NCBI GenBank assembly: GCA_963556145.1
Contig: OY744462.1
Span: 4,030,001 to 4,094,000 of the forward strand
DNA length: 64,000 nt
From: Hygrocybe punicea
Taxonomy: Eukaryota > Basidiomycota > Agaricomycetes > Agaricales > Hygrophoraceae
Direction of reading: 5' to 3'
Shown here piece by piece: positions 4,470 to 52,895 of this stretch. Position 1 is the first letter of the stretch. Every line of letters starts with the position of its first letter. The notes below the pieces were generated by a model. That model saw nothing but the letters and a program-made list of their open reading frames with translations, was not told the DNA's origin and did no database searches. Position numbers and translations under genes: made by a program.

Positions 4470-4684
4470 GCACTTATTAGCAATGCTGGTTGTTCAATGA
4501 TACTCAGAAAGCAAAACAAACATGTTCAAGAAGATTCTGGTATATAGTTCAAATAGAAAAATTGGATGAGCTGATTTATAACTAGAAAGAACAAATTCAG
4601 TGCTGTTGTGGATATTTGTGATTTGTTCAAGGTTTGGTGATGTGAAAGAAGAGGTGGACTGGAGACCAATTTGATGAACAGAGA

Positions 4685-21181: not shown

Positions 21182-21780
21182 GAAGATTCTGGCATATAGT
21201 TCAAATAGAAAAGAGGTATGAGCTGATAAAGAACAAATTCAGTGCTGTTGTGGATATTTGTGATTTTTTCAGGGTTTGGTGATATGGAGGAAGAAGTGGA
21301 CTGGAGACCAATATGATGAAATGGGATTAAATTTGGTAAATAAGGGTGATTTTCATACTTTGGCAAATTGTCTTTATAAAAATTCAAAGTAACTGGGCAT
21401 AGAATGACATTGTGTATGACAGAGACAGTTGGTGTGACAGGGACATTTTGTATGACATTTGCAGGAGGCACAAGGCCAATCCCAGTGACAGCACATTGTG
21501 TCCAAGACATTGCAATGATAAAAATCATAAGACATTGTGACATGGATGATATTTTTAACATTTTTGTGAACAGGTTTATAGTTTTTATGACAATAGAAGC
21601 TGGATAACGATATTTGTATGTCAAATATATCTGAAGAAGATAAATAAACAACATACCAATACAGATTCCACAACACATTACAGTACAAATGCAAAAATTC
21701 CAAGAAATTCCGCATTTTAAGGCTATATATGAATATAATATGTAAACATCTGATCATAGATGGTAATAGATTCATACCTG
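21178..21780 (-). pseudogene. Cys/His-rich N-terminal frame of Helitron (copy B)
   Basis: Counterpart of 4685-5060, with CHWDWPCASCKCHTKCPCH followed by NCLCHTQCHSMPSYFEF. Upstream residues include MSYDFYHCNVLDTMC. Two diverged copies keep the cysteines and histidines, which argues that this frame was translated and folded around zinc; it may be a first exon of the Rep gene. Function is inferred only. Confidence 0.4.
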
Positions 21781-32449: not shown

Positions 32450-33125
32450 AGAGGCTTGGTTGGGACATCCCTCTTAGCTTCTGGGATATCCCTGTAAGCT
32501 TGTAGGATGTCCCACAGCCTTCTCTTGGACATTGCTGTCAGCTTGTGGGACGTCACAGTCGGGATGGGATGTCCCACAGCCTTGTCTGGGACATCCCTCT
32601 CAGCCTGTGGGATGTCCCAGCCAGCCTGTGGGACATCCCACAGCTTATCTGGGACATCCCTGTCAGCTTGGAGCCCTTTCAGCGTATCTTTCCCATGATA
32701 CATGGGTCAGCCAAGATGGACAATTCCCACTCCAAGTGGGCCAGCCAAACTCAGCCAACCAATATCTTTCTCCAGGGCAGATGGCTTGGCCGAGGGGTCC
32801 ATGTTCTGGTGGACATGAGTTGGCTGAAGCAGACGGATATATTGGCTGGCCATGGAACATGGATTGGCCAACCAGTGTGGGTATTTTGGCTGGCCATGGA
32901 ACATGGGTTGGCCGACTGGTCTGGGTATTTTGGCTGGCCATGGAACATGGGTTGGCCGACTGGTCTGGGTATTTTGGCTGGCCATGGAACATGGGTTGGC
33001 CGACCGGTCTGGGTATGTCGGTTGGCCATGGAACATGAGTTGGCCAACCGGTCTGGGTATTTTGGCTGGCCATGGAACATGGGTTGGCCGACATCACTGG
33101 GTATTTTGGCTGGCCATAGAACAGT
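32450..33125 (+). repeat. Left inverted-repeat flank of KDZ block (two minisatellites)
   Basis: 32450-32670 is a 38-40 bp unit around GTGGGATGTCCCACAGCC. 32690-32830 is a unique part (CAGCCAAGATGGACAATTCC .. GGCTTGGCCGAGGGGTC). 32840-33125 has seven copies of a 45-bp unit with TATTTTGGCTGGCCATGGAA and CATGGGTTGGCCGACCGGTC. From about 32580 to 33120 the same parts, in the same order, occur in inverted orientation at 52895-52450. Confidence 0.8.
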
Positions 33126-33486
33126 GTTGCCACACATGCAACAGGTGGTTTATATCTGTTCATTCCGGCATCTCTGAACATACCCACCTTACATCTTTGC
33201 AATCTTACACATTACATCTTTGCACTCTTACCCACCAATTGCCACGTTCCACCAATTTTGTACTTGCTCCTCTATCCCTTTGTTCTGGAATTTATCAATA
33301 TTCACGATTCATCATATTCTACTAATCACATCCTAGGCAAACTTTGCAATCCCTTGTGTCATCTATTTGTAATCCACATTGCTGTACATCACATGATTTC
33401 TCATCACATCATGTTAAACACGAGGCATTATTCCTTTGTTCCAGACAATGACATCTGCCTTCATTCTCCTCACTATTTGCCTAAAT
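33126..33486 (+). other. Upstream region of coiled-coil gene
   Basis: 361 bp between the left inverted repeat and the start of the next gene; AT-rich with repeated TTACACATTACATCTTTGC-like words near 33190. Likely to hold the promoter of the 33487 gene (inference from position). Confidence 0.35.
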
Positions 33487-35769
33487 GAAGTGGATCACCC
33501 CAGAGTTTACTAAGATCCTCGAAGACGGTTATCCCGATTTTAGGAGATCCACTGGTGAAGATCGTATTCACGTCCTGAAAGGAATCAGGAAACTTTTAAA
33601 ACAATCGACACAACAAACCAACACACCATGGCCCCCAAATATGCAAAAGGTTGGTATATTCTAATACTACCCTTCAGATCAACCTAACAGCATTATACCA
33701 TGAATTCAGAAAATTCAAACTTGGTACCACAATCATCGGTCAAAATTGGAGAGCGACACGGAGGATGCTCCAAAATATACAAGGAAGTGGAATGCAAGGT
33801 TGGTTACCAGAGAAAAAATGACCAAGGAAATCGACGCTAGGACTGTGGAGCTGTCTGGTGAAACCGGAGGAAAGCCAGGCTACATCAAGTACTATGGCAA
33901 AGCCTGGAGTGATATTTACCGTTCCTTGACGGAAGCAAAAAAACAAGAATTTGAAGCTCTTGCAGAGGCCTGGAACCAGCAAGGTCCACCCCTGGAAGTC
34001 AAAAGACGGTACTAATCATCTTCTTTAGCCTGCATGATGCTAATCTTGTACCTTATCCAGCCGAGCAGCAAAAGATTTTGGTAAGACAGTGATGAAGTTT
34101 ATGAAGGACATAGATGAGCAGATGGGAGTGAAAATATTTATGTTGGTGGGATATGAAGATGAAGATGGGACTGTGACCAAAGGAAAGTGGGTTGATTCCT
34201 GCTTGGTGTCAATCACGTACTTATCTTTATTTCCTGTGAGGTTTGAGACACTGGCCCCAGTACACAAGAAGTTCATCGGCCTCTTCAAAAATAATGGGGA
34301 TGACATTTGGACCAAATGGGATGAACATTTGGGTTCCCTCTTTAATCATGATGGTATGATCAGCCATTTTTCCATATGTCCTATGTAATGTGTTCCAGAG
34401 GAATCCAATGGAGCACAGACTGACAGTGAAGACAACGATGGCGGTCCAATGACCAGATACAACAAAAGCCTGCCATTCAAGCTTGAGATCGATGAGGACA
34501 GTTTTCCTATGGTACCCAATGTTACAAATATGTCATTGGTTGACATAAGAAACATGTTTAGATCACTGGTGACCATGTCCTATCATACGTACTTCGGCGT
34601 TGGCCAAGCTTACTGTACTCATATTCATATGAAGGTCGGATGTGTAACAACAGCATCGTCGCTGTTCCATGGGGCAAAATTGGACAAAATCGAAACCAAT
34701 ACATGGAGGACATCTACTTTCCCCCTCACATAGAACTGAAGGAACCATGGAAAATGAAACTTGATGAACTTTGGATGGTCCACCAATTTTGGTTGCAACG
34801 GTAGAAACTCAGTGAAAAACCCTTCCGATTTAAAACCGTCCTGAAGACCGACCAGAGAGCACCAAATGCATTCATGCAAAAAAAGAAGAAGTTCCATGCT
34901 GCTGCCGCTTTGGCCAGGACCGATTGTTCGGCGCCGTCAAACTCCAGTAGGGAAACCACATCTATCCCAGCAGAATCGAGCGCTATGGGAGCCCGTAGAT
35001 CCAAATCGAATGTTCCACCATTAAAGAAAGTCCACCCCAAGAAGAAAACACAAAATGCTGCCAATTCCAGCAAGGGCAAGCAAAAAGCAGTCAGTAGCGA
35101 AGAGGGCAACGATAGTTGGAGTGATGAGAGTGCAAGTAGTGGTAGCCTTGATGGGCGTGGTGGTGACAGCAAGATGGATGACAATCCATCGACGTTAAAG
35201 CTTCTGTGGATGAAAAAGAAAATGGAGAGACAAGTGAAGCAAAAGGAGCAAGCAGAACGGTTACTAGCACAGGAACGAGAGGTGACAACAGAGTTACAAG
35301 AAGTACAAGAGTGGGAGAGGCGAGAGGCCCAGAAGTGGGAGGCACGAAAGGCCCAGGAGGAGGCCAGGAAGAAACAGGTACGAGAAGCCCAGGAGAGAGA
35401 GGCAAGAGAGGCACGGGAGAGGCAGAAAAGGGAGGCACAAGAGGCTCAGGGGAGGGAGGCACTAGAGGCGCGGGAGAGGGAGGACAGGGAGGCACGAGAG
35501 GCCCAGGAGAGGGAGGCACGAAAGGCCTGGGAAGAGGCCAGGAAGAAACAGGTACGAGAAGCCCAGGAGAGGGAGGCATGAGAGGCGTGGGAGAGGGAGG
35601 CACGAGAGGCATGGGAGAGGGAGGCACGAGAGGCACGGGAGAGGGAGGAAAGGGAGGCACGAGAAGCGCAGGACAAGGAGGAAAAAGAAACACGGGACAG
35701 GGATGTTCAACAACAACAACGCCCAGGGAAGTTGGACAGCTCAAGAAATGCCAGTAAAAATGCCAGGTA
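33487..35769 (+). pseudogene. Hypothetical protein with long Arg/Glu-rich coiled coil (KDZ block cargo)
   Basis: Unknown function; several short exons. It starts MKWITPEFTKILEDGYPDF; further exons give KPGYIKYYGKAWSDIYRSLT, AKDFGKTVMKFMKDIDEQMG, FETLAPVHKKFIGLFKNNGD, then IVAVPWGKIGQNRNQYMEDI and YFPPHIELKEPW. The last part is a recurrent Agaricomycete motif of multicopy genes (memory, not search). The C-terminal 300 residues are a basic stretch followed by a long alpha-helical REAREAQEREAR-type repeat, certainly a coiled coil. Stops at 34802 (TAG) and 35579 (TGA), with perfectly continued frame on both sides up to a terminal TAA at about 35767, are each one C-to-T step from Gln/Arg. The helix segment around 33900 has a faint HMG-box look but lacks clear landmarks. 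Confidence 0.55.
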
Positions 35770-36147
35770 AAGCTGTCCTGTTTCAAAGGTGGGGATGCTG
35801 CTCACAATTTACATTACCAACAGCGGTCAACCTTTGCGACGATCTACATGTCACAAATAAGCTTCATGTATTGAACAAATAACAAATATATATATAGTAT
35901 TATATGTCAAAACATCCCAAAGTGACATGTCATGTACGCCACGGCCCCCAACGTGACATAACAACTTGAGACTCTACCCATACCTATTAATAGTTCGGTG
36001 CTTACAAAGAATACATTCAACATTTGGCAGAGAAGGCAGATGAGGCATTGCGATGTCAGGAATATACATGAGTAGGAAGCAGTAGGAAGATCCTCCTGGC
36101 GTTTCATGTCTGTGGAAGGTATTGGTAAATCTGTGTGAATGATGATA
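35770..36147. other. Convergent spacer
   Basis: Short AT-rich spacer between the 3' ends of the plus-strand coiled-coil gene and the minus-strand JmjC gene; the last JmjC exon may extend into it (a donor-like GTACGA follows the HWREDS codons at about 36185). Confidence 0.4.
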
Positions 36148-38740
36148 TCAGTGTATATACATGCTGATAAGGCAATTTATCGTACCTGAGTCTTCCCTCC
36201 AATGACGTTTCACAGGGGGTGTGGGGGGACGGGGTGATCCAGCGAAACCACTATACACTGCTTCACTGCCAGATGAGATGTCCATTTGATCATCATCCTC
36301 TCTCTCCTCACTGTCCACACTCTGGTCGTTTGACTTCCCCACCTTCTCAGTTGGTTCCTCCTCCTCTTCGTCCTCCTCCTGCGCCCCATCCCCATCCGCC
36401 TCATCCTCCTCCTCCTGCACCTCCCCCTCCTCCTCCTCCTCCCCCTCCTCCCCCCCCTTCTTCTCCTGCTGCTTCCCCTCATCACTGTCCACATCTTCCT
36501 CATTTGACATATCCAGCAGCCCGATCAGACTGTCCTCATACCACCAAGCTCCATCATTTGAATTTCCTACCTGCTCAGGTGGATCCTCCTCATCCTCCTC
36601 ATCCTCCTCATCCAGGCCAGCCACGTCCATTTCTTCTCCCGCATCTTCCCCAGCTACGTTGGCTGAATTTCCCACCATTACAGGTGGATCCTCTTCCCTC
36701 TCAGCGTCGACAGCCATGTCGTTTGAACATCCAACCGTTGGAGGTGGATCCTGGTTCTCCTCAATCGCCACATCCTCCACACCTGCATCCACTGAATTTC
36801 CCACCTTCCTAAATGGATCATCCGCCTCTTCCTCACCATCGGTGCCCTTCCCTTTGTCGTGCTCATTGTCTTTCCCCTTGTCCCGTGTATCCGTGTTATC
36901 CTGTACCTCACTTTCACCGGTAGTTGCGTTGACTAGCAGAATTGGATGAGGTGGAAAATCTAAGCATTCAACAAGAATGGGACTGATGGGTTCTACCGGA
37001 CGGGTCTGAATGTGTATTTTTGGGCTGGTCCAGAAGAATTCTGATGGTGGGGTCTGAGGAAGCTCATTCAGCTTTGGCACCAAATCTGGCCAATCGTTTT
37101 GAAAATGTCGGCAGACCGCTGACTCGACGGCTTTCGCTGTGCAATGTGCTGGTGCCATCACAACCCCATCCTTATCCCATTTATACCCAACAATCGCAGC
37201 AGATAGTTCCAAAAGATTTTGTTGGAAAATGTAAGAGGGGCTGATCCAGTGGTCTTCCATGAAGACAACAAAATGTTCCGCAAACCAGATTTGGAAACGT
37301 CTATATCTGCATCGTGCGATATTCTGTTCCTCAAGAATTTCAGCTGATATGATATGGTTGTAGGACGTCCTGTTGATGATATCAGCAAGCTCAATCAGGT
37401 TTCCCACAATCACAAGGTTGAGGAAGCCGTCTTCGGTTTCGATCTTGGGCATATGAGACTTGGTGAAGACAGTAGCTGTGCAGTGAGCATTTTAATCTTC
37501 CGGAGTTTGTAAACATCGACCAAAGTAGCTCACATGATGATTCGTGGTTGCCTGTGAAGTACTCAATCCACATGGTGAGAAGTCAGCGGAGAAATGTACG
37601 TGTCACATTATGCTCCGCGTTTGTGATGGTATGACTCATCACAAAAGTATGGATAATCCCATAACAGGTATCCCGTATAGTTGACGTCGCATAGAGATAA
37701 TGCCCATTGACAATGGAGTGCTCTACACCGAGGACATAACGCAGGGTGCACAGCCTCATGTAACTGTGTGTTTCAGCACACATCTCAGTGGTCACAGATA
37801 TATTCCCACTTACAGCACAGAACCCTTGGTGAGCAGTAATCCTTCTGCTTCCCACAAGCCTTTCCCACTATGTTTTCTCGGCTCCCACTCCTGAGGATAG
37901 GCCTTGTTAGTGGCAAGATTGCCAGCCTTGCAATCCCATTCGGCATCCCTTTGAGGCCTCATGAGGACCCAGTACTTTGTGCCAGTCCTGACAATAACCA
38001 CCATGCCAAAGCCATCATCGTCTACATGTGTCCAAGAAATGGCACGAGCTGTCACCACCGTTCCCCAAGCCAAATCGTCGTTTAAAGGCTGCTCGCGGAT
38101 AAACCACGGTTGGCCCCGGGTTTCGTGCCAAGCAACCTCAGATGATGACAGGGACCTTTTCACGAATAGACAGGTAAATGACGTGTTTGATCTTCGAAAC
38201 AAGGTTGCTCACCGAAATTTTGGAGGTGGGTCCAACGTCATATGACCCATGGGAAGGTCAAGGAAATTGAAAACCCTTTCGTTGTCAGGGTCAAGCACAA
38301 CCTGATATAATGTTTCCAATGTGCCAGGTTTGTTCATATTCTTGATGTCAGGCACCAATCGCAATTCAGCAACTAACAAAGGCACTTTAGTCGCTATGCC
38401 CAGACATCACTCCAGAAATGGACCTTGCACTGAACGAATGGACGACAAAGACCCCAATGTCTCCAAACCTTCCCTATCAAACTCCACTGTTTCTACAGGG
38501 GAATTGAGCACAAGGATGTGATGATGACGAAAGATTCCTTGAATTGTTGCAGCATCCATCGACTTGAAGATGTTCCATTCCACCACGAACACACATGACG
38601 CATGAGGATCATACATTTTTTCTCTTGCACTAGGCAGCCGATGTGGAGGAACCCCGTCAATGTAACTAGATCGGATCATTTCATATGTTTCCCGCAACAA
38701 TGCATGTTCCACTTTTGCCTGTATCGTGCTTACCAATTAA
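36148..38740 (-). pseudogene. JmjC-type 2-oxoglutarate/Fe(II) dioxygenase (KDZ block cargo)
   Basis: Member of the large Agaricomycete JmjC family; such enzymes hydroxylate proteins or demethylate histones, and the substrate here is unknown. Minus strand in order: IRSSYIDGVPPHRLPSAREK, HHILVLNSPVETVEFDREGL, NFLDLPMGH, an intron, then SWTHVDDDGFGMVVIVRTGT with the iron-binding HxD (HVD, 38020-38028), KYWVLMRPQ, an intron, and YVLGVEHSIVNGHYLYATST. At the expected second histidine (TPH in relatives) this copy reads CTLRYVL, with Arg encoded at 37739-37741. The following region (MPKIETEDGFLNLVIVGNL) is family-typical, and a long acidic tail ends the protein. A TGA at 38407 is one step from CGA. 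Confidence 0.7.
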
Positions 38741-38989
38741 CAATCAAACGGTACAAAATCAGACATCAACATACAACAACGGATGGTGAATGGTGCACAT
38801 GCTCAACGGGTTCGTGTAGAGCGTCACCATTATACATCGTGAGATGAACACCCTCTGATGCTCGCTTTATGAATCATCAGTGGGGTGGCACATCATCGAA
38901 CAACAAAAGACACAATGGGTGCTGGATGGCTAAACAAATCAGGTTCCCCATAATCCTATCAAAATATTCATTCATGACAAATGAGACAG

Positions 38990-41131
38990 TCTTGAATCAC
39001 TTACATCTCCGGTAAGGTTGATGATCACGTTCACTTTCTCTGGCGCTTTCTTATAGTCATCGTTGTCATTGTCGTTGTCATCACCTCCATCCTCGGGATC
39101 ATCACGTTTCTTGGACTTGGGATAACTCCTTGTTGACCAGCGAGTGGACCTTTTCTTCCTCCGATATGACCTCCCCGGCGCGACCACGACTTTCTCTTCC
39201 TTCTGGACTTTCTCTGCTTTCTGCTTCTCCTTGCCTTTCGAAGAGTCCCCGACCTTGTCCAACATTTTGGCCTGGCTTCGGGTCAACATAGAGCCCTGTC
39301 CACGTGAAGCAAGCTCCTTCAATGGTCCACCCCTCTTCTTCTTGTTAATTTTCAATTGAAGCGGTTCATCATCGCTGGAAAGAGGGTTGCCTGATGCAGG
39401 CTTGTCATTCTCGGCACTTTTTCCCTGCGGGCCTTTTTCTGCCTTAGGGTCTACTGGAACATTTTGTTTCGGTGCGACCGTAAGCTGACTAGCAGAGTTG
39501 GTCAGGTCCTCCACTTCCTTATCTTGCAACATCTGTTGTCAGTTCCAGTGATAAATGTAGAGACAGGCAGCGTATCCTACTGTCAAAACAAAACCAACTA
39601 AAGTCCTGTTCTGTTCCCTGGACGCTGTCCTCCAACAGATCGTATTCTTGGAGGAATACATTCAGCTCCTGCATCGCCGAAGAACCTAAACATATTCTTG
39701 TAATGGCCCTCCAAAGCGCCCTCTCTGTTTGAGCAAGGAATGGAGGCCTTTCATTCCCCAAGGCAAACGTGATCTTTTCCTTATGTCAACTACATCCAAG
39801 CTGGCACAAATAATGGACTCGCTGCCATGAGAGATGGCCGTGCATGAGCTTCATGATTGAAACGTCATGGGAGAACAGTAATTATGGGCGAATGTGTGAG
39901 GCTTAGGTGGAATAGATTTCTCATCCGATCATACATTAAACCTCCAAAAGACTTGGTGAGGGAATTGACAAATGAGTCTTGCAACGGTAGATCAACACTC
40001 TTGGCCATCCTGAAACCATGTGGATTATTTATTTGCAGCAGGTGTAATGTGATTGTAACGCAATCCCAACCTCTGTAGCTTCTCCACCCATGATGTGAAG
40101 TCGCAGTCTACATATGAGTTGCCCTGTTTTTGTACAAAGTCTGACACACATAGAACATAGAACATACGTCACATACCTGGCCAAACCAAGTGAATGAGAA
40201 TGCCAGAAGCTCTAGATTGAGGAGGATCTGGTTGATGTCGGAGGATTCGAGGTTGACAGATGCACGGTAAAGGATCCGGAGGCTCATTTCTACTTCTTTT
40301 TGGGCTGGTGTCAAGTGTGCTGGGAGAGCGACTGCAAAGATCAGGATGGTGTCCATACTGGACACCAATTTCTGCGGCACTGCGACGGCTGAAACACCCA
40401 CCACTTCTTGATCTTGTTGTGTGATTAATAGACTTTTGCATGTCATATGAAGCTTCGTGATCGGCTTACTCCAGTCTCTGAGAAATTTGTAGAGCTTCGA
40501 GACGGTGTACAAACATCACCTCAAAATGCCTTCTCAAATGTGAATGGTCAACTCACCTTGGTCAACTTCTCGCTCATCTGTGGTTTCGCTGATCTCCGAA
40601 TTACTTTGAAACTTGGATGATGGGGCAGCCCAACAGCGTCCATGAGCTTATCTAGCAGGGTATAGCGAAGGATTGAGTGAGCCACTACGAGGAGGTCATT
40701 CCGGTACACAGTAGTCCACCTTGCCACATTACGCATCACAGAGCCATCAGCAGAGAGGTATTCTTGGATGATTTGGCCTTTACATGAGATTTCACCTGTG
40801 GGATTCACATAATCCAATTGCTTTGCCAGGGCCTAGCAGACAAGTCGACTGTCAATGTTACAAGGTGAGAGATTTGACGCACCATCACAGCCAAGGTGGA
40901 CGGTGTGTTTCCTAGAGCAGACTAATTGCCAATTAAGGCTACAATAGCCTTCTCAAGTGAATCTTCAGCAAGAGGCGTGCCATTGACCCATGGGAAGTCC
41001 TGGAACACATTCATGCTTCGGAAATCACTGCCAGACATGACAGAGGCATGTAGAGAAGCGATTGACGGTGAAGAGGTGCTTGCTGATGAGGACATTGGCA
41101 AAATGTTTAATTTGAGTGTATCTGAGAGCAA
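38990..41131 (-). CDS. Upstream exons, possibly N-terminal part of JmjC gene
   Basis: Minus-strand exons with no recognised domain. 41131-40926 begins MLSDTLKLNILPMSSSASTS; 40817-40550 gives KGQIIQEYLSADGSVMRNVA and VVAHSILRYTLLDKLMDAVG; 40490-40180 gives KLHMTCKSLLITQQDQEVVG; 39761-39582 gives AMQELNVFLQEYDLLEDSV; and after a 48-bp GT..AG intron 39532-39000 codes a basic, acidic-patched segment (SYRRKKRSTRWSTRSYPKSK). That last exon ends INLTGD before a perfect GTAAGT donor, so transcription probably continues into the JmjC exons 250 bp downstream. The basic region looks nuclear. It could equally be a separate gene; exon limits are approximate. Confidence 0.45.
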
Positions 41132-41490
41132 TTTAAGAGAGGCTGAGGCTAGATGGTAGAGGTGCAGAAGGTAAAAAAAAATGACACATCAACTGTGATC
41201 ACGTGTGCCAGTGTGACCACATCACGTGAATTGCCTGGTAAGTACACACTTAAGTACACATTTCGAATTGACAGAGTTGTCAATGTCACAGAGTTGTCAA
41301 TGTAAAGCCAGGGAAATTCTCCGGACACTGTCTAGATATTTGTCAGCTGAAACTCATAGGTCTTTGTCATCTGTGAATGAGGATAATGACATTTAGTTCC
41401 ACACAGAGGTTTCTGACTACAGTCATACAAAGCATGCAACGGTAGCTGTTGTACTTTCACATTAGGATGATATCTCCCTTGGCACTATAG

Positions 41491-43168
41491 CTAATTCCAT
41501 CTCCATTCCTGTGATGCCAAAAACTCTGCATTCATCTCCCTTGCAAACACATTGTGTTGGCTCCAGGTGGGCTTGTCAATCTTGAGATGGTCATGTACCA
41601 TGTTTCGCATATAATGCACCATGCATATTCTTTCACCGCCCTCCCATCTGCCTACACTGTGACTGAGAACCTTGCCACAAATTTCGATGACAGTTCCTGG
41701 CGAATAAGAGAACGTAGCATCCAACTCAGGGATGGCTAGTTCCACATTCGTATGTGTCCCACAACTCGCCAGCAAATCATACCATTCTGGACACCCTCCA
41801 GCATCTCTGTGTCAAGTTGTAATCCTGTTAACGATAACGGCGATTCCAGTGTAAACAGATGTCCACTCCTTAGCATTTTCATGTGTTTCCACATTCTTGA
41901 TCATTTCGCCGTCCCGGATTTTCGTCACAGCCAGAAGGCCAGCTGTGTACAATGACTGATGGGTTAATGCAGTAACTGCATTGATGATCAGCTCACTGGG
42001 TTCGATTGCAGCCATCCACATGGTGGCTTCAGTTGTTCGAAGAGTTGTCGACGTGATCAACCTATCGGTAAGTCGCTGAAAAAAACAGACGGTCAGCTCA
42101 TGTAAATAAGACGACTAACTAAAGGTGTTACCTCTCTACCCTGAGAAAATCATGCTGCGGCAAAATCCACTGATCCTGGGTGAAATTGTGGGTTTGGAGA
42201 TGGAAAGAAAATGTTTGGATCTTTCTTCCATAGCGGATCTTTCCCTTTCTCAACTTTTTTGAGGGACTCGGAATAGGATTCTTCCAGAATTTCGGTTATC
42301 ATTTCAGCACTGACATTCAATTCCTCCTGTGTTGCAGTGGGTACTGTTAAAAACCATATTTCCTGGGGGGGCAAGTGACTCACAATACGTCTTGGAGTTA
42401 CAACATCAGGTAGATACCAGACCAAAATTGAACCACACGTGTCGATTACTGTTGCTGGTTCATTCACATGTCCGATGTGAATCTCCTGAAAAAACCTGAG
42501 TAGTTTTTCATTGTCAGCATCCGAAGTCTCCTTGATATTCTTCACTCGATTTGCCAGTCTATTCACATCCAAGGGCACAAGTACTTTGCCACAAGATGTC
42601 AGTCTAAATATGCCAACTTTCATGGCAGCAACGTACTAGGGTTCAAAATCGCGGCTGCCACAGTGAGGAGAACCCTCTCCAGTTCAGATTCTGAGACCAT
42701 TTCCGACTCTGAGAATGTTTCAGAATCTAGGGCTGAATCGCCCAAGACCTTGCTAACTGGAAGCTGATCCCTCAGCATCATCAAACGCAACCTGCAAAAT
42801 ATGTAAGATATGACATTGAAGCAGCATGGATCTGACCTCAGCCATTTGCATTCCTCTACAGGAGACTTCGGAGGGTGCATGCCCAACTTCCTATAATACG
42901 ATGTAGTGTTTGAGAGGATTCTTCTCATCCTCATCCACATGTGTTTCTTTAGATTCGGAGCCAGACCACAATCCGTTGTTTTCATGTTGACGGAAAGCGA
43001 GGTTTCCATTGCCTTGGATTGTGCATTCTTTGAGGGGATTCTGTCTGCATACATAATGGTTGAGAATTGAGATTGGTTGAGAATTGAGAAGGATGGTTTC
43101 ATTACACATGGTGGCCTTGAGGTGGTATAATTTAACATGGGGTTATGGTTAGAACTTTTAGCATTCAA
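41491..43168 (-). pseudogene. TET/JBP-family DNA 5mC dioxygenase (KDZ block cargo)
   Basis: Fungal TET/JBP enzymes oxidise 5-methylcytosine in DNA with Fe(II) and 2-oxoglutarate. Minus strand in order: serine/glutamate-rich N-terminal exons (43168-42650); PATVIDTCGSILVWYLPDVV; GSVDFAAA, a TGA at 42150, then FSQGRE; an intron; TALTHQSLYTAGLLAVTKIR; SVYTGIAVIVNRITT; a TGA at 41812; HRDAGGCPEWYDLLASCGTH with the metal-binding HxD (HRD, 41803-41811); FSYSPGTVIEICGKVLSHSV with the distal His (41659-41661); and GGERICMVHYMRNMVHD, where the Arg that binds 2-oxoglutarate is expected. The order and spacing fit mushroom TET/JBP proteins beside KDZ transposases. The stops are single transitions from Arg and Trp. 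Catalytic residues remain, but the gene is broken as it stands. Confidence 0.75.
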
Positions 43169-44805
43169 TAATTCGTTGCATACAGCAATTTCACCAATTC
43201 ACAGGCACAACTGATTGTGAAATAAAACACATAGAAAAAACAATCTCAATCCCAAGCAGATTCAGTTTATATGTATACAGAACATGCAAGTTTACTAGCT
43301 GATTGATACCTGTGCCATTTTGTGAACGATAGAATAGTCAAAAGTACAACGAGACTTACTTGTCTTGATATCAATGAGGCTGCCAGGCCTGCTGTGAGCA
43401 GGTTGCCCGGCAAGGAAGTCCAGGGGATTCACCCGCCCTTTCCTTCCAGGTTGACCGGCGGCAGCAGACGCCCATATCAGGGGACTGGCCACCACTGGGT
43501 GGGCACGCACTGATGCCACAACTCGTGCCAATGGAGAAGTTGTCTGAAACAAGTAACATTGTCAGCAGGGCTGTACCCCAACATAAAGCAGCTACCATAA
43601 GTGAATCACTACTACAAGACCACACATACCACCTGGGAGTCAACGTGTCAACGCAGGCAATATTAAACTGCAAAGACACACCCCGTGGTTGTAACTGGGT
43701 ACACCGCCAGGCCCACTGCAAGGAGGTTGCCTGGCAAGGAAATCAGGGGGATTCACCCACCCTTTCATTCCATTGACCGGCAGCAGCAAGTGCCCATTTC
43801 TGAGGACCAGCCACCACCGGGTAGGCATGCACTGATGCCACAATTAATCCAGGTGGAAAACGTGTCGGAAAGCTGTAGAAGATCAATCGCAGTGACAAAC
43901 AATCAGTTACTTACCAATATTCTGAATCGATGGAAGTCAGCGGAGACATAGCAAACCACTCACCATTTGGGTAGGAGAATGAGACATAATGCCAAATGCA
44001 TAGCATCCCAGAATGCGAGATTGTTGCCTGGTACAACAATCTCGCAGTGTGGAATGAACAATGATGAGGCGGAAAACAATGAACAAGGGAAAAAATAATT
44101 CAATGAGTGCTTGTGATTGGTTGTATTTGTTCATGTGACAAATGCGGTTGTGATTCATCACGTGAAGTGAATTCACTCACATGATGTGGCCAAGTTTGGA
44201 CGGTGTGACTCATCACTGTCCAAATTTATATACAGGCTGGCAACGTTGTAAATGGCACTGTTGTTGAGAAATGTAATTAGAACGATGTGAAAATTGTCAA
44301 TATAATTCATAATCTGGCTAGGAACATTGTGAATGGCACTTTGTTACCAAGACATTTAATTACAGCGTCGCTTCCAAATAATGTACACCAGTGCCTTGAA
44401 TTCAACCGCATTTGTACACGGTGTGCTGAACAAGAACATTCAGAAATTGGACTGAAGATCAAAGGATGTAGCAGACCTGTAGCAAAACTAGTGGCTAGGT
44501 GAATGAAATATCCCATACACATACGAACATCTTCATCCACACCAAACATGGGTGGCCAACCTTCTTTCAGGAACGGTGTTTGTGCAGGGCCTGCATCTTC
44601 CGATTGCGTCATGCCTGGCCATCAGACAGAATGACGTTCTTGTTCGGTGGTGGCCACATGAAAATATGCGAATAGATTTCAGGCACATCCCTACACAATC
44701 AAAAGTGGGTTCAGTATAATGTTCTACACAGATGGTGGGAAGCATTCAATGTCATGAACATGAGCAGTTTCACCAGGCAGCATATCAACAAGAACTGTCA
44801 TAAAT
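43169..44805. other. Region with 155-bp direct repeat; no clear gene
   Basis: A block containing CAAGGAAGTCCAGGGGATTC and CACGCACTGATGCCACAA occurs twice in the same orientation (43378-43535 and 43698-43855), diverged. 44280-44750 has short frames on both strands (for example TGGKHSMS-type plus-strand residues before 44800) that may be the decayed N-terminal part of the Ulp1 gene, but none is convincing. Confidence 0.4.
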
Positions 44806-44809
44806 ACGG

Positions 44810-44967
44810 TGTAGTAGGGACTAGGGGTCCCTACTGGTGCCTCAGTGGTCTCGGGGTGGTGTGACAAGCTGAGATCTCATAAGCTATCTACACACAAGGT
44901 AATCCTATGGAACGTGGGAACAGTCTCGTGATCTACTAGTAGTAGTGGGGCACTACCCACTACTACA
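44810..44967 (+). repeat. TRIM-like LTR, left
   Basis: 158 bp, TGTAGTAGGGACTAGGGG .. CCCACTACTACA; the termini are inverted repeats. It differs from the right copy by three substitutions. Confidence 0.9.
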
Positions 44968-46212
44968 TGTACCCCCCTCGAAAAAAACAGTGGTGTCCTC
45001 GCCACTGTGGAGCCAAAAAACCAACACTCACAAAAACTCCCAAACTCCAACTCAAAACTCCAACTCCGTCAAGGACTGATGAAACGCTGCCGACAGTGAT
45101 ATGCCCCCCAGTGGACGCCACCACCAGCTCAAGATATCACCTGCCGACCGAATCGCCTGTGCTCAGAGTGTAACTCTCGAAGGGACGTGAAAAACTCGTA
45201 ATGTGTTGGTGTGGCATGGGGTAGGGGTACTAGATACGGGGAATAACGAATGGGGATGATGACAATGTAGGCTAGATGGAGGGTAATGGGTAACAAAACA
45301 AAAATGGGCATGGGGTGATGAGATGGTATGGTGGTAGGTTAAAAAAGGACAACTTCGGTTCGTTTCGGTGAACTTGGGGTAACGGCGGGTCGTTGGGTGT
45401 TGAACGGGCTGTGGGGAGTCGAAAGGGTGAATGCGGGAAGGGGAACTTACGAAAAAACTAGGTGGATTGGTGATAACTCGGCTCTATGACGAAATATGGG
45501 GCTATGCGGGGCGATGAGGGGTGAACGCAAGGTTCTCCGGCCTCGCGCGTGGGTTTGTGGGATGTAACGGGGGTATGTGGGGCTTGGGGTGGCGAAAAAC
45601 GGGGGTCGGACTCTGGTGACGTGGCAAACGCGGGGGCTCTAAATCGGTGGGGGTGGCTTGCATAGGGCGTACATGGGGTACGTGGAGCTCTGGGATGCGG
45701 GCCGTTAGCGAAAAGGGCGCATTGAGCGCGCGTGTTGGAGGGCTTGGGTACACAGAAAATGGGGGTCGATCTTTTGGTGACGTGGCGCGTCGCTGGATGG
45801 CCATAAAGGCCGGCTACGTCCCTCTTGAGGTGACGCGAGTGGACGGGGGCTCTTGGTATGTCATACGTAGATTCGTGGGGTCGAGTGGTCGTGTTGTGGG
45901 GCTATGAACTATGAAGACGGGGCGGCTAAAACGGTGACTTCGGCTGTGCGTGGATTGGCCGTTTTGTCTTGAAAAATGGCGGCTATGGCGCTTCTGTCAG
46001 ACGCGAGGGCTCGCGGAGTGTCTGGCGAGGATGCGGGTGGCTGTGTAGCTGGGCATGGACGAAAAATGGGTGTTGCTCTGCAACTGGATAGTGAGACCGC
46101 TTGAAAAAAAAAAGGGCGCAAGAAAGCCAGCAAAAAGCTCAAGGAAAGCTCAGAAACGCCAGAGAAAGACAAGAAAAGCAATGGTGAGACGAATCACACC
46201 CTCATCACCAGG

Positions 46213-46370
46213 TGTAGTAGGGACTAGGGGTCCCTACTGGTGCCTCAGTGGTCTCGGGGTGGTGTGACAAGCTGAGATCTCATAAGCTATCTACACACAA
46301 GGTAATCCTACGGAACGTGGGAACAGTCACGTGATATACTAGTAGTAGTGGGGCACTACCCACTACTACA
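46213..46370 (+). repeat. TRIM-like LTR, right
   Basis: Second copy of 44810-44967, followed directly by the ACGG duplication. Confidence 0.9.
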
Positions 46371-46374
46371 ACGG

Positions 46375-47600
46375 CTTTGGAAAATTTCCTGGTACAGCGC
46401 CCTACCAAGGATAGAAGGGAGCTGTCATTTGCTGCAGTACAAGTGAACATTGAAACGCAGAAATATCGTAGTGTATTAGCCTCAAGAGAAATTACCTTGC
46501 GGAACGTTGATGTTGCGACTCAGGATGTGACGAAATAAGGTGAATTCTGACCAAATAAAAACAAATGCTCAGGGTGGCATTTGATTTCTAATCGCAAAGA
46601 TAGGACAATGTCTACCAATGGAATAAGTAATCTCAGAGATGGTGAGCAATATGCAATGCTCGGTCATTTTCCCCACGTCGTTGAGCGTGTACAACGGTCA
46701 TAGAAACGCTGTGACATCACGCATGTGATGTCACGTTTGGATGTTTACACGTGACATCATGCATGTGACATCACATGTGATGTCAACTTTAGGCATCACA
46801 TGTGGACCGGACTCTGCATCACATGATGAAAAAGCGTCTCTTTTTTCAACCATCACATGCATCTCCAAACAAAAATCTAATATGCCATCTCTTCATCTCC
46901 CTGTCCTTTTCACAGTCTCTGGTGGACACACCTACCACAAATCATTGGAAGGCGACACATCCATTGAATTTAAATGCAAAGGTTCATGGTAAATCATGGC
47001 GTGCAGCATCCTAATCATCACTTACTGTGGTATACCAGTGTGTGTTGCATTCTGACGGATGACAGCTCTGCAACCATGCAACTTTTGATCGAACGCGATG
47101 TTGTCAGTTGCCAGGTGATTGTTAGTCATCAAGAGCCCACCCTTGATATTCACATAATTTTGTAGGCCACAAAACCGAATGAAGAGCAGATACGCGGCTT
47201 GATATTGCATGTGCTCATGTCTCGACATATGGACAAGTCCACCTGCATGTTTTTAGGCCGAAAGAACGATGGTACTCCACCATTTCCATGAGGTTAGATG
47301 TGACTCCAATTGATACTCAGAAATTGTGTCAAAACATCAAATTGGCATTTATTTTGACAACGAGCACGCATCCTGGATGACAGATATGTATGCAGATTTG
47401 CTCAGTTTGCTCACCAGCACACTGGGGGAAAGTAGCATTGAATATTTACGGTCAGTATGACAAATTCATAATACCACAACTAATCTCTACTTCGACAGAA
47501 ACGATGTCGACACCAATGGCCGATTTTTGCAGTTAAATGAAAGGCCAGATGCGGTCATGTACATAACATAGCCATTGCCAGGGCCATCGCTCACTCAGGT
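46375..47600. other. Ulp1 upstream region with clustered TGACATCAC palindromes
   Basis: 46380-46535 continues a frame TALENFLVQRPTKDRRELSF that may be an N-terminal exon of the Ulp1 gene. 46709-46850 has at least five TGACATCAC / GTGATGTCA words in both orientations, several separated by GCATG or CATG, giving near-palindromes such as TGACATCACGCATGTGATGT. These resemble half-sites for bZIP factors or a structured terminus. The rest has no recognised gene. Confidence 0.4.
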
Positions 47601-47609
47601 GTTCTAGGG

Positions 47610-48637
47610 TTGAAAACACGTGTACCGTTGCAAAATACTCAGAGCGGGGTGCAGTTCCATGGATTTCATATCAACGTTTGGAAAAGGATTGGCTAGATGA
47701 CGAACTGATTAATTTTGGTACCCAGTAAGTATATTTCAACCCTCCAGTGCAGTAGCTTATTCCCTGTTTCAGCTACGCTCTGCAGAAAGCAGCAATCCAT
47801 CAACCAGATTTGCCAGAAAACATACACATATTCATTACTTTTTTCATGGAGAAATTGAGGTACACGTTGCTTGGTGGTTCATATAACTTAATTTCCTCTG
47901 AATCTGGACACAGGAAGAACGGTGTGAAGAGTTTGAAGAGGTGGATGAAGGCAATTGACATATTTTTGCTCCGATACTTGGTCTTTCCTGTTCCCACTGG
48001 GTGAGTGCAGACAGCTTTCGTGAAGGCAACATCTCACCTCACCATCAGTGACCACTGGTATTTGATTATCGTGACAAATCCTGGTGCATGTTTGTCACAA
48101 AGTCCTGCTGATGGACTGCACACGTAATTATCCATTTTAGCTTTGCCTTGAACTTACTCATCTTCAATTAGCGTAATATTTGTTCTCGATTCATTGCCCC
48201 CGGCGAACCATCATAAAGATATATCCCTGGTGTATGCGTGGCTGGCCGGCATTGCGATGAACACCAGACAGGTGAAAAAGCTGGCACATATCAAGAGAGT
48301 CACCCCCACGTCTAACGTCAGTGTTGCGACTGAATTGAAGATTTGTTTTCAGGTACCTAGACAGCCGAATTTTGACGATTGTGGCATCTACATGCTGCAT
48401 TTCCTTCGAATCTTCTTAGAAAACCCAATGGAAATGATGGACATCATGCTGGGTGACAAGAGTACCATCAAAGCTGCCAAAGATTTATGGCAAGACTGGC
48501 GAATACCCATGCTCCGTTGGGAACTCCAGGGGGCCTTGCGCAGGCAAGCTGTTCGCAATTGCCTTCAGGGGGATGTGCTGGACAGGGTTGTAGTGGAAGG
48601 AAAGGAGGGTTCATCCAGTGATGTTAAATTGGTCTGA
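47610..48637 (+). CDS. Ulp1/SENP-type SUMO peptidase (C48) (KDZ block cargo)
   Basis: Cysteine peptidase that matures or removes SUMO-like proteins. Exons in order: YQRLEKDWLDDELINFGTQ (the substrate-binding WLxDxxI motif); a GTAAGT intron; YALQKAAIHQPDLPENIHIF, ITFFMEKL; an intron; LKRWMKAIDIFLLRYLVFPV; an intron; DHWYLIIVTNPG with the catalytic His; an intron; FVLDSLPPANH with the catalytic Asp; and VPRQPNFDDCGIYMLHFLRI with the oxyanion Gln and nucleophile Cys (48360-48410). The complete H-D-C triad and order are those of C48 peptidases. No in-frame stop was found in the core, unlike its neighbours. The 5' end is unresolved; it may begin upstream of the TRIM-like insertion. The gene is 200 bp upstream of the KDZ transposase on the same strand. 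Confidence 0.8.
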
Positions 48638-48843
48638 GGTTGGTTTGAGACCCCAATGATGATATCAGATTCTGACAGTTCATCAGATTTATAACCTTGT
48701 CCTGTACTGAAATGTATTTGTATGTCAAGGCACGTAATTTATGTCATATTTATTATTTGCCATGTGTTTTGCCTCGTGCATTGGTCTTTATAATGCGTGT
48801 CATTTGCTCACTTTTTCCACACTCATCCAACTATTGTTCATCC

Positions 48844-51800
48844 ATGCTGAAATCGAAAGTCACTTCCTGGTCAGGAAAAAAAAAGGAATTTGCCAGAGAG
48901 GTTGAATTTATGGTGGTGGCAAAGAAACGAGGTGGAAAGACAGTCAAGGCTCGTCCAGTCATTCGTCAGCCAAGTCCTGTAAAACAATCAGAAAGGAGTG
49001 AAGATCCTCCCATGCCCTCAATGTCATTTGTGGAAGAGGAGAAGCCTCTGACAAGGAGACACCGAAATAAGAGTGGAAAGGTTGACACAACTATTATCTG
49101 TTTGACTTGATTTTGATTGCATGTCAATTAGACACAGAATGATGAAATGGAAGCCTGGAAAGTGATTCACAAGCAATACCTCTCCGAACTCTTATCATCT
49201 GAGGCCCCCCCTTCCGATGTTACGTGCCAGACATGTCTCATGGCTGATATGTCTATTTGTTGCCCTGATTGCTATGGTTGTCCTTCATTCTGCCAGCGTT
49301 GTTGTTTGCAGACACACAAGCATGATCCGTTCCACAGAATTGAGATCTGGAATGGCAAATGTTTCTTGAAATATGACCTTAATACGATTGGCCTGGTCAT
49401 GTGTCTTGGCCATGGTGGAGACAATTGTCCATCATACAGACATGATGGACAGGAGCCATCTGTCGAAGATACATCTGTGAGGGATATTTTAATGTCTGGC
49501 CTGGATGAGGAGGACAATTTGGAATTGGAATTGGGTGTTCACGCCAAGGAGGATATCCTCACTGTCACTCATATGAATGGAATTTACCAATGTCGAATCC
49601 AATGGTGCTTCTGCCCAGATGCCCCTACTCAAGACATTCAACTACTTCAAATGCATTTGTATCCTGCAACGGCAAAATGGCCATCGTCAGCCTTCACTTT
49701 CCAGCTCCTGGATCATTTCTACATTGATTCGATGGAGTGCAAAATGTCTGCAAACAACTTTTATAACAAGTTAAGGAGACTGTCTTCAAATGCATTTCCA
49801 GATACATTGCCAGTTCGTGATATACTTCTTCTTTGGTTACACAGTCCATACAGGACAAAGTACTGAGTTATGTTGTTCAGGATCGTTATCGTGAACTAAT
49901 GAGGGTCTCAAGACAGTGGCGGTACTTGAACCTCAAGAAACAATTTGGCTTTGGGCATGATACTGAGAGGGAGCCTGGTAATGGCAATCTGGCATTGTTT
50001 TGCCCTGCATGTCCCCAGCCAGGGATAAATCTTCCGCAGAACTGGATGGATAGACCTCATCAGTGGGTCATTCTGATCAGTTTTCATGTAGTACCTCACC
50101 AAACATGGAAACAGGTGGCTTTACAGGCCCAGCATCGTCGTCGACGGGAATTTCAAAGCTGAGCAGATTAACATGCGGAAGCCTGATGACGACGTTGGGC
50201 TTATTGATGGACAAGGCTATATGGTTGAGGATGCACCTTATCATGCTCATCTGGCAGCTTCCCTGGAGTCCAAAGAGGTATTTATCAAATTGTGAATTTC
50301 GTGAATGCTAAATCAATGATCCATTATCAGAGATCACAGTGCTCAAACCATAAGGCTGTCAACCAAGCCAATGCCAATCGGCATAACTTATATGCTACTG
50401 GAATCGGTGCATGTGCTTGTGCAAAGCATGGTTGCTTTGTACCACACAGTGTCGTCGACTTCCAGAAGGGTGAACGGTCAGTCATGTGTTTTGAGCTATG
50501 AATTGTCACAAATTTATTAAACAGCCTGCACCAGACGCATGAACATTGATTATTCGATATGCAATGCTCTCAATAGGCTGTGCCACAGTGGTATCAAGGA
50601 AGCACTGGTGGAATATGATATCATCTGCAGTTGGCTCATCAATTTTGCTAAAAGGGTTTCTGATTCTGACCACCTCACTCTCCCCGAGGCACTCGAGATC
50701 ATTGGGGCTGTGGGCAAGTTTCATCTTGGTGCACATGTTGCCAAGTGTTTTGCCCTATTCAGTCTCAACTTCGTTCATGGTGCTGGTCAGCAGGATGGCG
50801 AAATTTTGGAGACACTGTGGGCTATCATCAACAAGATTTCCAGTTTTATTCGTTTCATGTCAAAATCCCAACGACGTGAGATCCTAGATGACCTTATGAG
50901 GGATTCGAATTGGAAGAAGTTGGTAGGAATGGGTACGTGATTCACAGGCATGTCATCAATACAAATCATCACCATAGCCATCCCACAGTTCGGTCTTTGT
51001 TGAAAAGGTATGATAAAGCAGTAGATGGAATGCAGGAAATGAAGGCAGCCTTTGAGGAGCTTTCCGAAACTGTTGATGAGCAAGTGCTGTCACAGTGGAA
51101 GGAAGAAGAAACAAGGGCAATGGATTTCCATGGTGACTATTTGAGGGTATTCGACGTCAGAATGGAGAAAGGTTTGTCTTATAAAGTGTGGGTAATTTTG
51201 ACACGGTAATGATGTTTCACCAGCACCATCACAGGCCGAGATCAGGTTGAGACTGACCACAGGGAACCCCAAAGATGTAATGGCTGGTCAGGTGACCATT
51301 TTAAATGAAGGAATAAACATAGAACAAGCACAGTAGGATGTATCCTCATTCTCATCAATCGTCTCTTTGACATTTGTTTACCCTACAGGAATACTCTGAA
51401 GACAACTTCGAGTGCTGTTCAAAAAACGGGCAGTTTCACAGACAAGGCAAATCTGGAGGATCGTCGAAATAGGCTTCAGTCTCGAATCGATTCGTTCCAC
51501 AGAAAAATGCACGGAATACTGGGTGAATAAGTGGATGACTGTAATTTGGTGAATTGTGAATCAGATGCTGATGATTGGATCATGGATTTGGATGAGGAGG
51601 GCAAGGTAGATGAAGAAGATGATAACGTCACAGAATGGCCTGAAAACTGTTGACTTACAATGCCATCTACCTTGGGAATCGAGGAATGTGCTCGGCTGGG
51701 TTTGGAAAATTTGGCTGCTCAGGAGGTGGAACTCAGGGTGGGGCAAGCAAACGACTGTTTGGAAAACTTGAGGATGACACTGGGTGAGAAAATGGTAATT

Positions 51801-52407
51801 TTTCAAACCTCTGTCCATGGAGCAAACAGTCAGAAGAAGAAGACTCGAGCATGGGACGACATACATGCCATCCAGCAAAAAGTTTCCAAATATGCCACCA
51901 GCTACAGGCAGGCTCGTCGAGCATTGGTCAGTCTAGGGGGGAGTGCAGACATTTTGGATCGTTTCAAAGTGCTGAGGCAGGAGGATATCAAGATGAGTGG
52001 TGATATGCTTGAGGAGAATAGAGTGGGCCAGAGGAGTCACAAGCTTCCCTGGATCTGGCGGATGAAAGATAGGAATAATACTGGGGACAACGATTGGATG
52101 CAGGAAGGTAAATAATGGTTCTCCTACAGCAATTCATGGAAGATCTTACTGCTATACAGTGTATCGTGTAAACTGGCTCCATGGAAAGGCCAGATATGAT
52201 CGGTGGTCTGAAGAATTGCAAAACGTCAAGTCAGAAATGGGTAACACGATTCGTTGGTTGCAACACCAGGAAGTGCAATGGGAAGCACATCGTGACAAAG
52301 TTGGTCCCGGACTGAGGGGGCACATCTGTTATGCTGAAAAACAGATGGTAATGTGGAGGAATATGAGAGCACAAGCAGAAATTGCCTTTGCCAACAAGAT
52401 GGAGTAA
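48844..52407 (+). pseudogene. KDZ transposase with CxC2 domain
   Basis: DDE-type transposase of the Kyakuja-Dileera-Zisupton superfamily. Exon 1 (48844-49080) is basic; exon 2 (49132-49812) holds the CxC2 zinc-cluster (VTCQTCLMADMSICCPDC, FCQRCCLQTHKHDPFHRIEI) and SAFTFQLLDHFYIDSMECKM; exon 3 from 49881 gives DRYRELMRVSRQWRYLNLKK. The core follows: SIVVDGNFKAEQINMRKPDD with the first Asp (50143-50145), CSNHKAVNQANANRHNLYAT, GIGACACAKHGCFVPHSVVD, EYDIICSW with the second Asp, and GAGQQDGEILETLWAIINKI with the Glu. A long helical C-terminal region ends at 52407. At least seven short GT..AG introns. TAA at 51528 and TGA at 51651 interrupt the C-terminal region in frame; both are single transitions. 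All core motifs are present. Confidence 0.85.
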
Positions 52408-52449
52408 TATATATCATTAGAGAAGATTTAGTTCAAACTAAGATATTCC

Positions 52450-52895
52450 TAACCAACTGGACCATAACCATCTGCCAATAATGGCCAGCAAGCCAATATA
52501 TAGTATTCAGCCGACATAACCAGACCGGTCAGCCAATCCATATTCCATGGCCAGCCAAAATACCCTGGGCCGTCGGCCAACCCATGTTCCATGGCCAACC
52601 GACATACCCAGACTGGTGGGCCAATCCATGTTCCATGGCCAACCAAAATACCCAGACCGGTTGGCCAATATATCCCTCTGCTTCGGCCAACTCATGTACC
52701 TCAGAACATAGACCCCTCGGCCAAGCCATCTGCCCAGGAGAAAGATATTGGTTGGCCGAGATTGGCTGGCCCACTCAGAGTGGGAATTGTCCATCTTGGC
52801 TGATTCATGTTTCATGGACAAGATACACTGTAAGGTGTGCAGCTTGTGGGACACCCACAGCCTTTTCTGGGATGTCTCACCCTGCTCAGCATTTG
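52450..52895 (-). repeat. Right inverted-repeat flank of KDZ block
   Basis: Reverse complement of the parts at 32580-33125: on the minus strand GTGGGTGTCCCACAAGC, CAGCCAAGATGGACAATTCC, GGCTTGGCCGAGGGGTC, then four or so 45-bp units with TGGTTGGCCATGGAACATGG. It begins 43 bp after the transposase stop codon. Confidence 0.8.

Follow-up and report, generated by a model that had tools for sequence, protein, structure and literature searches.

A KDZ transposon-like element of Hygrocybe punicea with a conserved set of TET/JBP, JmjC-like and Ulp1-type genes and a possible anti-silencing role

The locus described here, in a 64,000-nucleotide stretch of the Hygrocybe punicea genome (the window, i.e. 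the whole stretch analysed), raises the question of whether a KDZ transposase gene and the putative dioxygenase and SUMO peptidase genes around it form one mobile unit whose cargo counters silencing, as a first-pass annotation had proposed, or are random neighbours. Comparison of ends across copies placed the element at 32671-52839 of the window (20,169 bp), correcting the borders of 32580 and 52895 given originally, with the 7-bp target site duplication CAGCTTG on both sides (32664-32670 on the left and 52840-52846 on the right). Perfect 7-bp duplications were found in 10 of the 12 element copies examined, one of these ten (C2:4.27M) being judged by eye, and the termini were GAGCCC..GGTGTG in 11 copies and GAGCCA..GGTGTG in the remaining one. 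Similarity to the left end starts exactly at 32671 in 22 of the 39 other scored ends, and within 3 bases of it in 34 of the 39, and similarity to the right end stops exactly at 52839 in 25 of 39, the rest stopping no more than 4 bases beyond. These precise ends and 7-bp duplications bear out the proposal of one mobile unit.

The left end (32671-33123, plus strand) comprises the terminus 5′-GAGCCC and a subterminal 44-bp minisatellite that is inverted relative to the right end (52508-52839, minus strand), where the inverted minisatellite is accompanied by the terminus GGTGTG-3′. Two pairs of inverted arms, one 172 nt long (90%) and one 162 nt long (88%), are spaced 19.8 and 19.5 kb apart, and the inverted ends align over 350 columns with 83% identity, beginning a few bases inside the termini. 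The minisatellite-rich inverted flanks described previously thus stand as far as the inverted arms are concerned, but the GGGACATCCC-type minisatellite at 32461-32670 lies outside the element and is its pre-existing insertion target, because joining the flanks restores a continuous repeat unit (local score of 59; the best of 200 shuffles scored 50).

Between these ends the gene order is HMG-like/coiled-coil (plus strand), JmjC-like (minus), TET/JBP (minus), Ulp1/C48 peptidase (plus) and KDZ transposase (plus), which confirms the gene set originally reported, by Pfam for KDZ, C48 and Tet_JBP and by motif for the JmjC-like gene. The KDZ transposase gene (49147-52407) is broken in the window copy; in the model of the C39 copy the predicted protein has 953 residues, with a possible extra upstream exon. 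Its transposase domain (PF18758) was detected with E=1.3e-26 in the window copy and E=6.7e-45 in the C39 copy, and a CxC2 cysteine cluster lies upstream of the catalytic core (E=4.4e-24 in the window copy). PMC7641404 places CxC2 next to KDZ in Pleurotus and attributes the CxC5/CxC6 clusters to Iyer 2014. The Ulp1-type cysteine peptidase gene (46882-48637) matched Peptidase_C48 with E=2.8e-14 in the window copy and E=2.3e-24 in the C39 copy, whose model displays, by eye, a His-Asp-Cys catalytic set (GDHWYL, VLDS and FDDCG). The TET/JBP dioxygenase gene (41491-43054), also broken in the window copy, is a CcTet relative; Tet_JBP was called with E=4.6e-11 in the window copy and, as PF12851, with E=4.4e-12 in the spliced C39 copy, and comparison of the element TET with CcTet (7vpn) gave E=6.7e-22, HRD and the distal His being conserved in the C39 copy alignment.

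The JmjC-like gene (36148-41092), likewise broken in the window copy, would encode, as modelled from the C39 and C36 copies, a protein of approximately 1,200-1,400 residues that has a basic linker and an acidic tail, and its core exon (37813-38208, minus strand) contains the motifs W-x-H-x-D-D-D-G and G-x-K-x-W. The HMG-like/coiled-coil gene (33485 to approximately 35775) was labelled by eye, has 99 genomic matches and no Pfam match, and carries a stop in the window copy, with a partial model in the C39 copy. By eye, it also adjoins KDZ where a JmjC match is absent, for example at C8:1.01M. Iyer and colleagues reportedly linked TET/JBP to KDZ in basidiomycetes (in PNAS, in 2014), and their KDZ-TET/JBP elements are said to include additional proteins, one with a divergent HMG domain, which we take to be probably the coiled-coil gene found here.

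Across the genome, 34 loci hold JmjC, TET, Ulp1 and KDZ in the same order and orientation (J− T− U+ K+). TET, Ulp1 and KDZ matches were all present within 25 kb of 38 of the 92 JmjC matches, whereas 200 random placements gave 1.9 such matches on average and 7 at most. Guessed lengths for three contigs (C27, C33 and C41) entered this random placement; those for C33 and C41 are close to the real lengths, and C27 is carried as a guess. For these counts, 7 of 99 JmjC and 49 of 119 Ulp1 matches were dropped as further pieces of kept places, 117 of 169 KDZ matches were kept after second pieces and the weakest of those listed had been left out, and all 122 TET matches were kept, 96 of them above the Pfam cut-off. 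The first-pass annotation had named two observations that would speak against a single unit: that no other locus carries this gene set with the transposase, which these 34 loci contradict, and that the inverted flanks occur independently of KDZ genes. The second holds in part, as 21 of 40 scored left ends have no JmjC, TET, Ulp1 or KDZ match within 25 kb, and a complete reading of two of these copies showed none of the genes inside. These gene-less copies with similar ends look like the non-autonomous copies of a DNA transposon, and therefore the reading of the locus as one unit stands. Among more distant KDZ matches, JmjC was found within 25 kb in 3 of 43. Subtelomeric relatives keep JmjC, TET and Ulp1; KDZ was not found with them. 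Another transposase may serve these loci; no Pfam transposase was detected in the frames scanned (minus frames of L042 and plus frames of L043).

Similar ends on gene-less copies also fit a scenario in which unrelated genes were simply caught between them, and Kojima 2025 (PMC12730594) describes TET genes as passively passed between transposons. A passive origin is at odds, however, with the single gene order at 34 loci and with the far lower figures from random placement. It is also at odds with the dN/dS values between subfamilies B and C, which were 0.177 for KDZ, 0.155 for TET, 0.225 for JmjC and 0.123 for Ulp1; these four ratable genes are under purifying selection between the subfamilies (dN/dS 0.12-0.23). 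In addition, a rearranged lineage keeps HMG, JmjC, TET and KDZ, with HMG and TET inverted, at protein identities of 49% for KDZ, 43% for JmjC, 39% for TET and 39% for HMG; Ulp1 was not found in this lineage. We rejected random neighbours, as the first-pass annotation had done, on gene order, random placement and dN/dS, and consider that explanation very improbable indeed. That the locus is a mobile unit with a conserved gene set is close to certain.

The identity of the JmjC-like protein was assessed by several approaches. The H-x-D ... K ... H order is present with JmjC-like spacing: H-x-D and K occur in elements A (the window copy), B, C and D and in the metagenome proteins P0002, P0003, P0010, P0012 and P0019, and the distal His occurs in B, C and D, with Arg at that position in the window copy; the subtelomeric F copy has lost the H-x-D. 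No Pfam model reached its cut-off for this gene in the window copy or the relatives tried; below the cut-off, JmjC_2 gave E=0.13 for the C copy and JmjC gave E=0.15 for the relative P0019. There was no JmjC model match for the B copy or for the D copy spliced by the exon-chaining script, and no JmjC call by Pfam for the window frames, the spliced C39 copy or eight members of A2, nor any by NCBIfam. A JmjC_2 match for the D type (E=8.2e-4) was discarded, as two splice residues had been set by analogy and the match was gone with the script-chosen splice. Sequence and profile searches of the PDB returned no JmjC for this protein. By hhalign, comparison with proteins from this genome that Pfam calls as JmjC gave non-significant E values of 0.22 and 0.16, the latter with the H-x-D and K positions in register, and comparison with a JmjC-like reading frame uncalled by Pfam gave a probability of 82%, which is weak evidence of identity. 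On the double-stranded beta-helix fold of JmjC oxygenases, AlphaFold models had pLDDT values of 29 (discarded) and 41.5 (used as a hint only); Foldseek against the PDB gave no match at E≤0.001 and no recognized JmjC protein in the best 50 of 708, and TYW5, a JmjC hydroxylase that acts on tRNA rather than a demethylase, was the only recognized JmjC-family structure among the 34 VIA matches listed. No significant family or fold match establishes JmjC identity, and the label that we use is weakly suggested by the H-x-D ... K ... H pattern and by hints, all of them weak, from profiles and fold.

The window copy itself is decayed. Nine codons that align with the C39 copy are in-frame stops, distributed over KDZ, TET, JmjC and HMG; the JmjC has Arg in place of the distal His; and a nested TRIM-like element of 1.56 kb occupies 44810-46370, with ACGG on either side and 160-bp direct repeats that are 98% identical. 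C-to-T changes in this copy affect 87 of 507 CpG sites and 53 of 3152 other C sites, being tenfold faster at CpG. This CpG-directed decay suggests the footprint of methylated cytosine, and thus that the element undergoes cytosine methylation. CpG depletion is not peculiar to the element, and the host has five matches to C5-methyltransferase domains in four places.

TET-bearing KDZ transposons are already known, and the feature that appears to be added here is the co-conserved JmjC-like and Ulp1 genes. As described in PMC12730594, the TET+ Kyakuja elements of Agaricomycotina share with our element a KDZ transposase, a CcTET-related TET/JBP and 7-bp target duplications, but they have 5′-CA..TG-3′ termini and no TIRs, whereas the element here has 5′-GAGCCC..GGTGTG-3′ termini and long, imperfect inverted ends rich in minisatellite. 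Zisupton, a KDZ relative with the same transposase superfamily, makes 8-bp duplications according to the same source, compared with 7 bp here. Plant Vandal/MuDR proteins and the SET methyltransferase genes of HarbingerS likewise place epigenetic-mark genes on mobile elements, with one anti-silencing factor each as cited in PMC12730594, whereas two oxygenase-type genes and one deSUMOylase-type gene are found here. The main text of PMC12730594 has no occurrence of JmjC, Jumonji, Ulp1, C48, SUMO, peptidase, protease or HMG, and among the literature matches listed, which did not extend to Iyer 2014, we recognized no report of JmjC or Ulp1 in KDZ elements.

We think it moderately probable, for the account as a whole, that the element is a Kyakuja-like DNA transposon of the KDZ type, approximately 20 kb long and TET-bearing, which moves by cut and paste with a fixed cargo; an anti-silencing function of the cargo genes taken together is slightly more likely than not. 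In such an element, an HMG-like DNA-binding protein, a JmjC-like dioxygenase, a TET/JBP dioxygenase and an Ulp1-type deSUMOylase would travel with the transposase; TET would oxidize 5-methylcytosine on the element DNA, the JmjC-like enzyme may remove or alter a repressive mark on chromatin proteins, and the peptidase may strip SUMO off repressors or the transposase complex. Together they would preserve the capacity of the element for expression and excision in a repeat-methylating host. The fuller version, in which a multi-layer cassette has been selected against DNA methylation (TET), chromatin proteins (JmjC-like) and SUMO-dependent repression (Ulp1), and the TET and JmjC-like pair has been inherited across transposon lineages differing at at least half of their residues, is a tentative reading that we place somewhat below an even chance. 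The full package appears not to be essential to a KDZ element, because Ulp1 was not found in the rearranged lineage and many KDZ copies are without JmjC.

The selection data show that the genes are needed, not what for, and the cargo might instead aid transposition or copy fitness by means other than anti-silencing: the HMG-like protein could bend the ends, the peptidase mature or protect the transposase complex, the JmjC-like protein modify protein or RNA, and TET help the transposase on methylated ends. The HMG-like gene beside KDZ at places without JmjC and the TYW5 similarity are consistent with such roles, but the activity on 5mC of CcTET, the studied relative, as given by Kojima 2025 (PMC12730594), and the methylation-type mutation footprint argue against them, and we consider this explanation unlikely. 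Less likely again is action of the cargo on the whole host genome, on all repeats or on genes, the element being one beneficiary of many. Oxidized methylcytosine in C. cinerea lies also on other transposons, retrotransposons and centromeres and not on the TET-bearing element alone (PMC12730594), and because retrotransposons are marked in this way a self-directed role for TET is not required; the many cargo copies within one genome fit such action too, but the linkage of the genes on one mobile unit, and the selection on them there, agree with the element itself being the one to benefit. Multi-layer anti-silencing may thus be taken as the best of the mechanisms considered.

If it is correct, one mobile element attacks several host silencing layers simultaneously. 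Fungi in which TET-bearing copies are numerous would then offer a test ground for the co-evolution of transposons and host methylation. The abundance of TET in such genomes would also be explained in part, many of the genes here belonging to a kept package and not being lone captures. Whatever the mechanism, a fixed pair of JmjC-like and TET genes on a transposon would represent a new family of putative oxygenases. The metagenome proteins P0001 and P0011 (JmjC-like) and P0023 (TET, 77% identical) have a common longest-contig value of 7711, and because these values are identical, linkage of the JmjC-like and TET genes is probable in a further fungus as well.

Within the Hygrocybe punicea genome (92.2 Mb in 42 contigs, with the window at C2:4030001-4094000), the element is a KDZ transposon of 20,169 bp, spanning 32671-52839 and delimited by a sharp loss of similarity at both ends. 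In 39 other scored left ends (out of 497 candidates), similarity was found to start exactly at 32671 in 22 and at most 3 bases off in 34, and in 39 other scored right ends (out of 313 candidates) it stopped exactly at 52839 in 25 and no more than 4 bases beyond in the remainder. CAGCTTG lies directly outside both borders, and a perfect 7-bp duplication is present in 10 of 12 copies, i.e. the window copy, the C39 copy and ten left/right pairs formed from scored ends (from a set with three or more further candidates), being absent at C41:3.47M and C8:4.08M; at C2:4.27M, where the first bases deviate, it was judged by eye. The joined flanks align across the junction to the adjacent repeat unit with a score of 59, compared with a maximum of 50 in 200 shuffles of the right flank, which indicates that the insertion split a tandem repeat. 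As joining the flanks restores the repeat unit, the stretch 32580-32670, which the first-pass annotation had assigned to the element, belongs to the target instead. The two ends form an inverted pair of arms (172 nt at 90% plus 162 nt at 88%, or alternatively 350 columns at 83%) that contain a 44-bp minisatellite. The left end of the divergent D lineage (C34:1.97M) was read and likewise starts with GAGCCCTT, followed by a different minisatellite.

One long copy of each further type was fetched, namely B at C39, C at C36 (lacking the left end), D at C34 and F at C8, and genes in B were modelled by chaining exons with homology support. The gene order in B is HMG-like/coiled-coil (+), JmjC-like (−), TET (−), Ulp1 (+) and KDZ (+), the KDZ and TET models being stop-free at 953 and 455 aa respectively. 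Pfam backs KDZ, CxC2, Tet_JBP and C48 in the element, and its TET protein matches the structure of CcTet, the studied C. cinerea enzyme, with E=6.7e-22 and conserved iron-site residues. The coiled-coil gene, whose protein matched no Pfam model, is one that we take to be HMG-like by eye and from the abstract of Iyer 2014.

Genome searches, run per family or by single exon, returned 99 JmjC matches (92 places retained), 122 TET matches (all retained, 96 exceeding the cut-off), 119 Ulp1 matches (70 places retained) and 169 KDZ matches (117 of those listed retained). All four genes occur in window order at 34 loci. Among 54 JmjC hits of at least 69% identity, partners within 25 kb were TET at 43, Ulp1 at 42, KDZ at 40, all three at 37 and none at 8; the 23 hits at 43-53% had TET at 12, KDZ at 13, both at 11, Ulp1 at 3 and none at 7, and the 12 at 30-44% had TET at 4, Ulp1 at 3, KDZ at 0 and none at 8. 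Three partial hits (51-78%) all had TET and Ulp1, and one had KDZ. These counts show that JmjC accompanies TET more firmly than Ulp1. The D copy, a member of the 43-53% lineage, carries HMG and TET in inverted orientation, and Ulp1 was found in it neither by homology nor by Pfam (six frames, 3.8 kb). Among metagenome proteins, two that are JmjC-like and one TET have the same reported contig size of 7,711, so that the pair is probably linked in another fungus.

The unit is a transposon with kept cargo, subject to CpG-type decay. Between B and C, dN/dS was 0.177 for KDZ, 0.225 for JmjC and, roughly given dS values of 1.15 and 2.26, 0.155 for TET and 0.123 for Ulp1; HMG (115 codons) was left out because dS was saturated. 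Against the window copy the ratios were 0.225 (KDZ), 0.405 (TET), 0.275 (JmjC), 0.213 (Ulp1) and 0.133 (HMG). In the single pair of window copy and B, dS varied threefold between genes (TET 0.089, JmjC 0.129, KDZ 0.215, HMG 0.297 and Ulp1 0.303), and this inequality hints at mosaic exchange between element copies. In 9,680 well-aligned columns out of 22,398, window-copy-specific C>T changes were ten times as frequent at CpG sites (87 of 507) as at C sites elsewhere (53 of 3,152), and B-specific ones four times (27 of 387 compared with 58 of 3,216); eight of the nine in-frame window-copy stops, aligned to B codons, are C:G to T:A changes. Such a pattern is the mark expected of deaminated 5-methylcytosine, and a C5-methyltransferase domain is matched five times in the host genome, at four places. 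The CpG observed/expected ratio is 0.49-0.51 in the element and 0.36-0.64 in its neighbourhood, so that depletion is not peculiar to the element. A nested TRIM-like element at 44810-46370 (160-bp direct repeats, 98% identical, with ACGG on both flanks) is less CpG-depleted (0.85) than its host element and is thus probably young.

For the 40 scored left ends (a minimum number), a hit to JmjC, TET, Ulp1 or KDZ lies no farther than 25 kb away in 19 and is lacking over that distance in 21. Two copies from the second group (L071 and L072), examined over their whole length, matched none of the five gene models; with 7-8 kb, shared element ends and an interior of low-complexity repeats, they are probably non-autonomous relatives. 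JmjC, TET and Ulp1 also lie subtelomerically in the element's order at C8:6289500-6302600 (L042-L043), C20:46661 and C39:5896844. At the C8 locus the JmjC has lost H-x-D, and homology searches over 33 kb there detected neither KDZ nor HMG. A second, distinct JmjC-like frame (HHDAAG ... GAKMW), with no Pfam call, lies in that subtelomeric stretch at L048:5919-6431.

In Kojima 2025 (PMC12730594), the Kyakuja transposons share the 7-bp duplication but lack inverted repeats and have other termini, whereas the element has inverted repeats and runs from GAGCCC to GGTGTG; we therefore call it 'Kyakuja-like'. What appears to be new is that TET is joined by JmjC-like and Ulp1 genes as a fixed cargo. 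The TET enzyme would counter methylation, the JmjC-like enzyme may work on chromatin proteins and the Ulp1 peptidase might target either SUMO-dependent repression or the transposase. That TET by itself lets an element evade silencing by methylation is a proposal of Kojima 2025; the three-layer scheme is a hypothetical extension suggested by the first-pass annotation, which no result here contradicts.

Elsewhere in the window, a 149-bp tandem array of approximately 14 copies occupies 15253-17342. Two related minus-strand genes with large open frames and tandem peptide repeats of the AVQKFHLENPEKHAAQN type, at 2511-4493 and 18744-21238, may represent two copies of a further mobile element.
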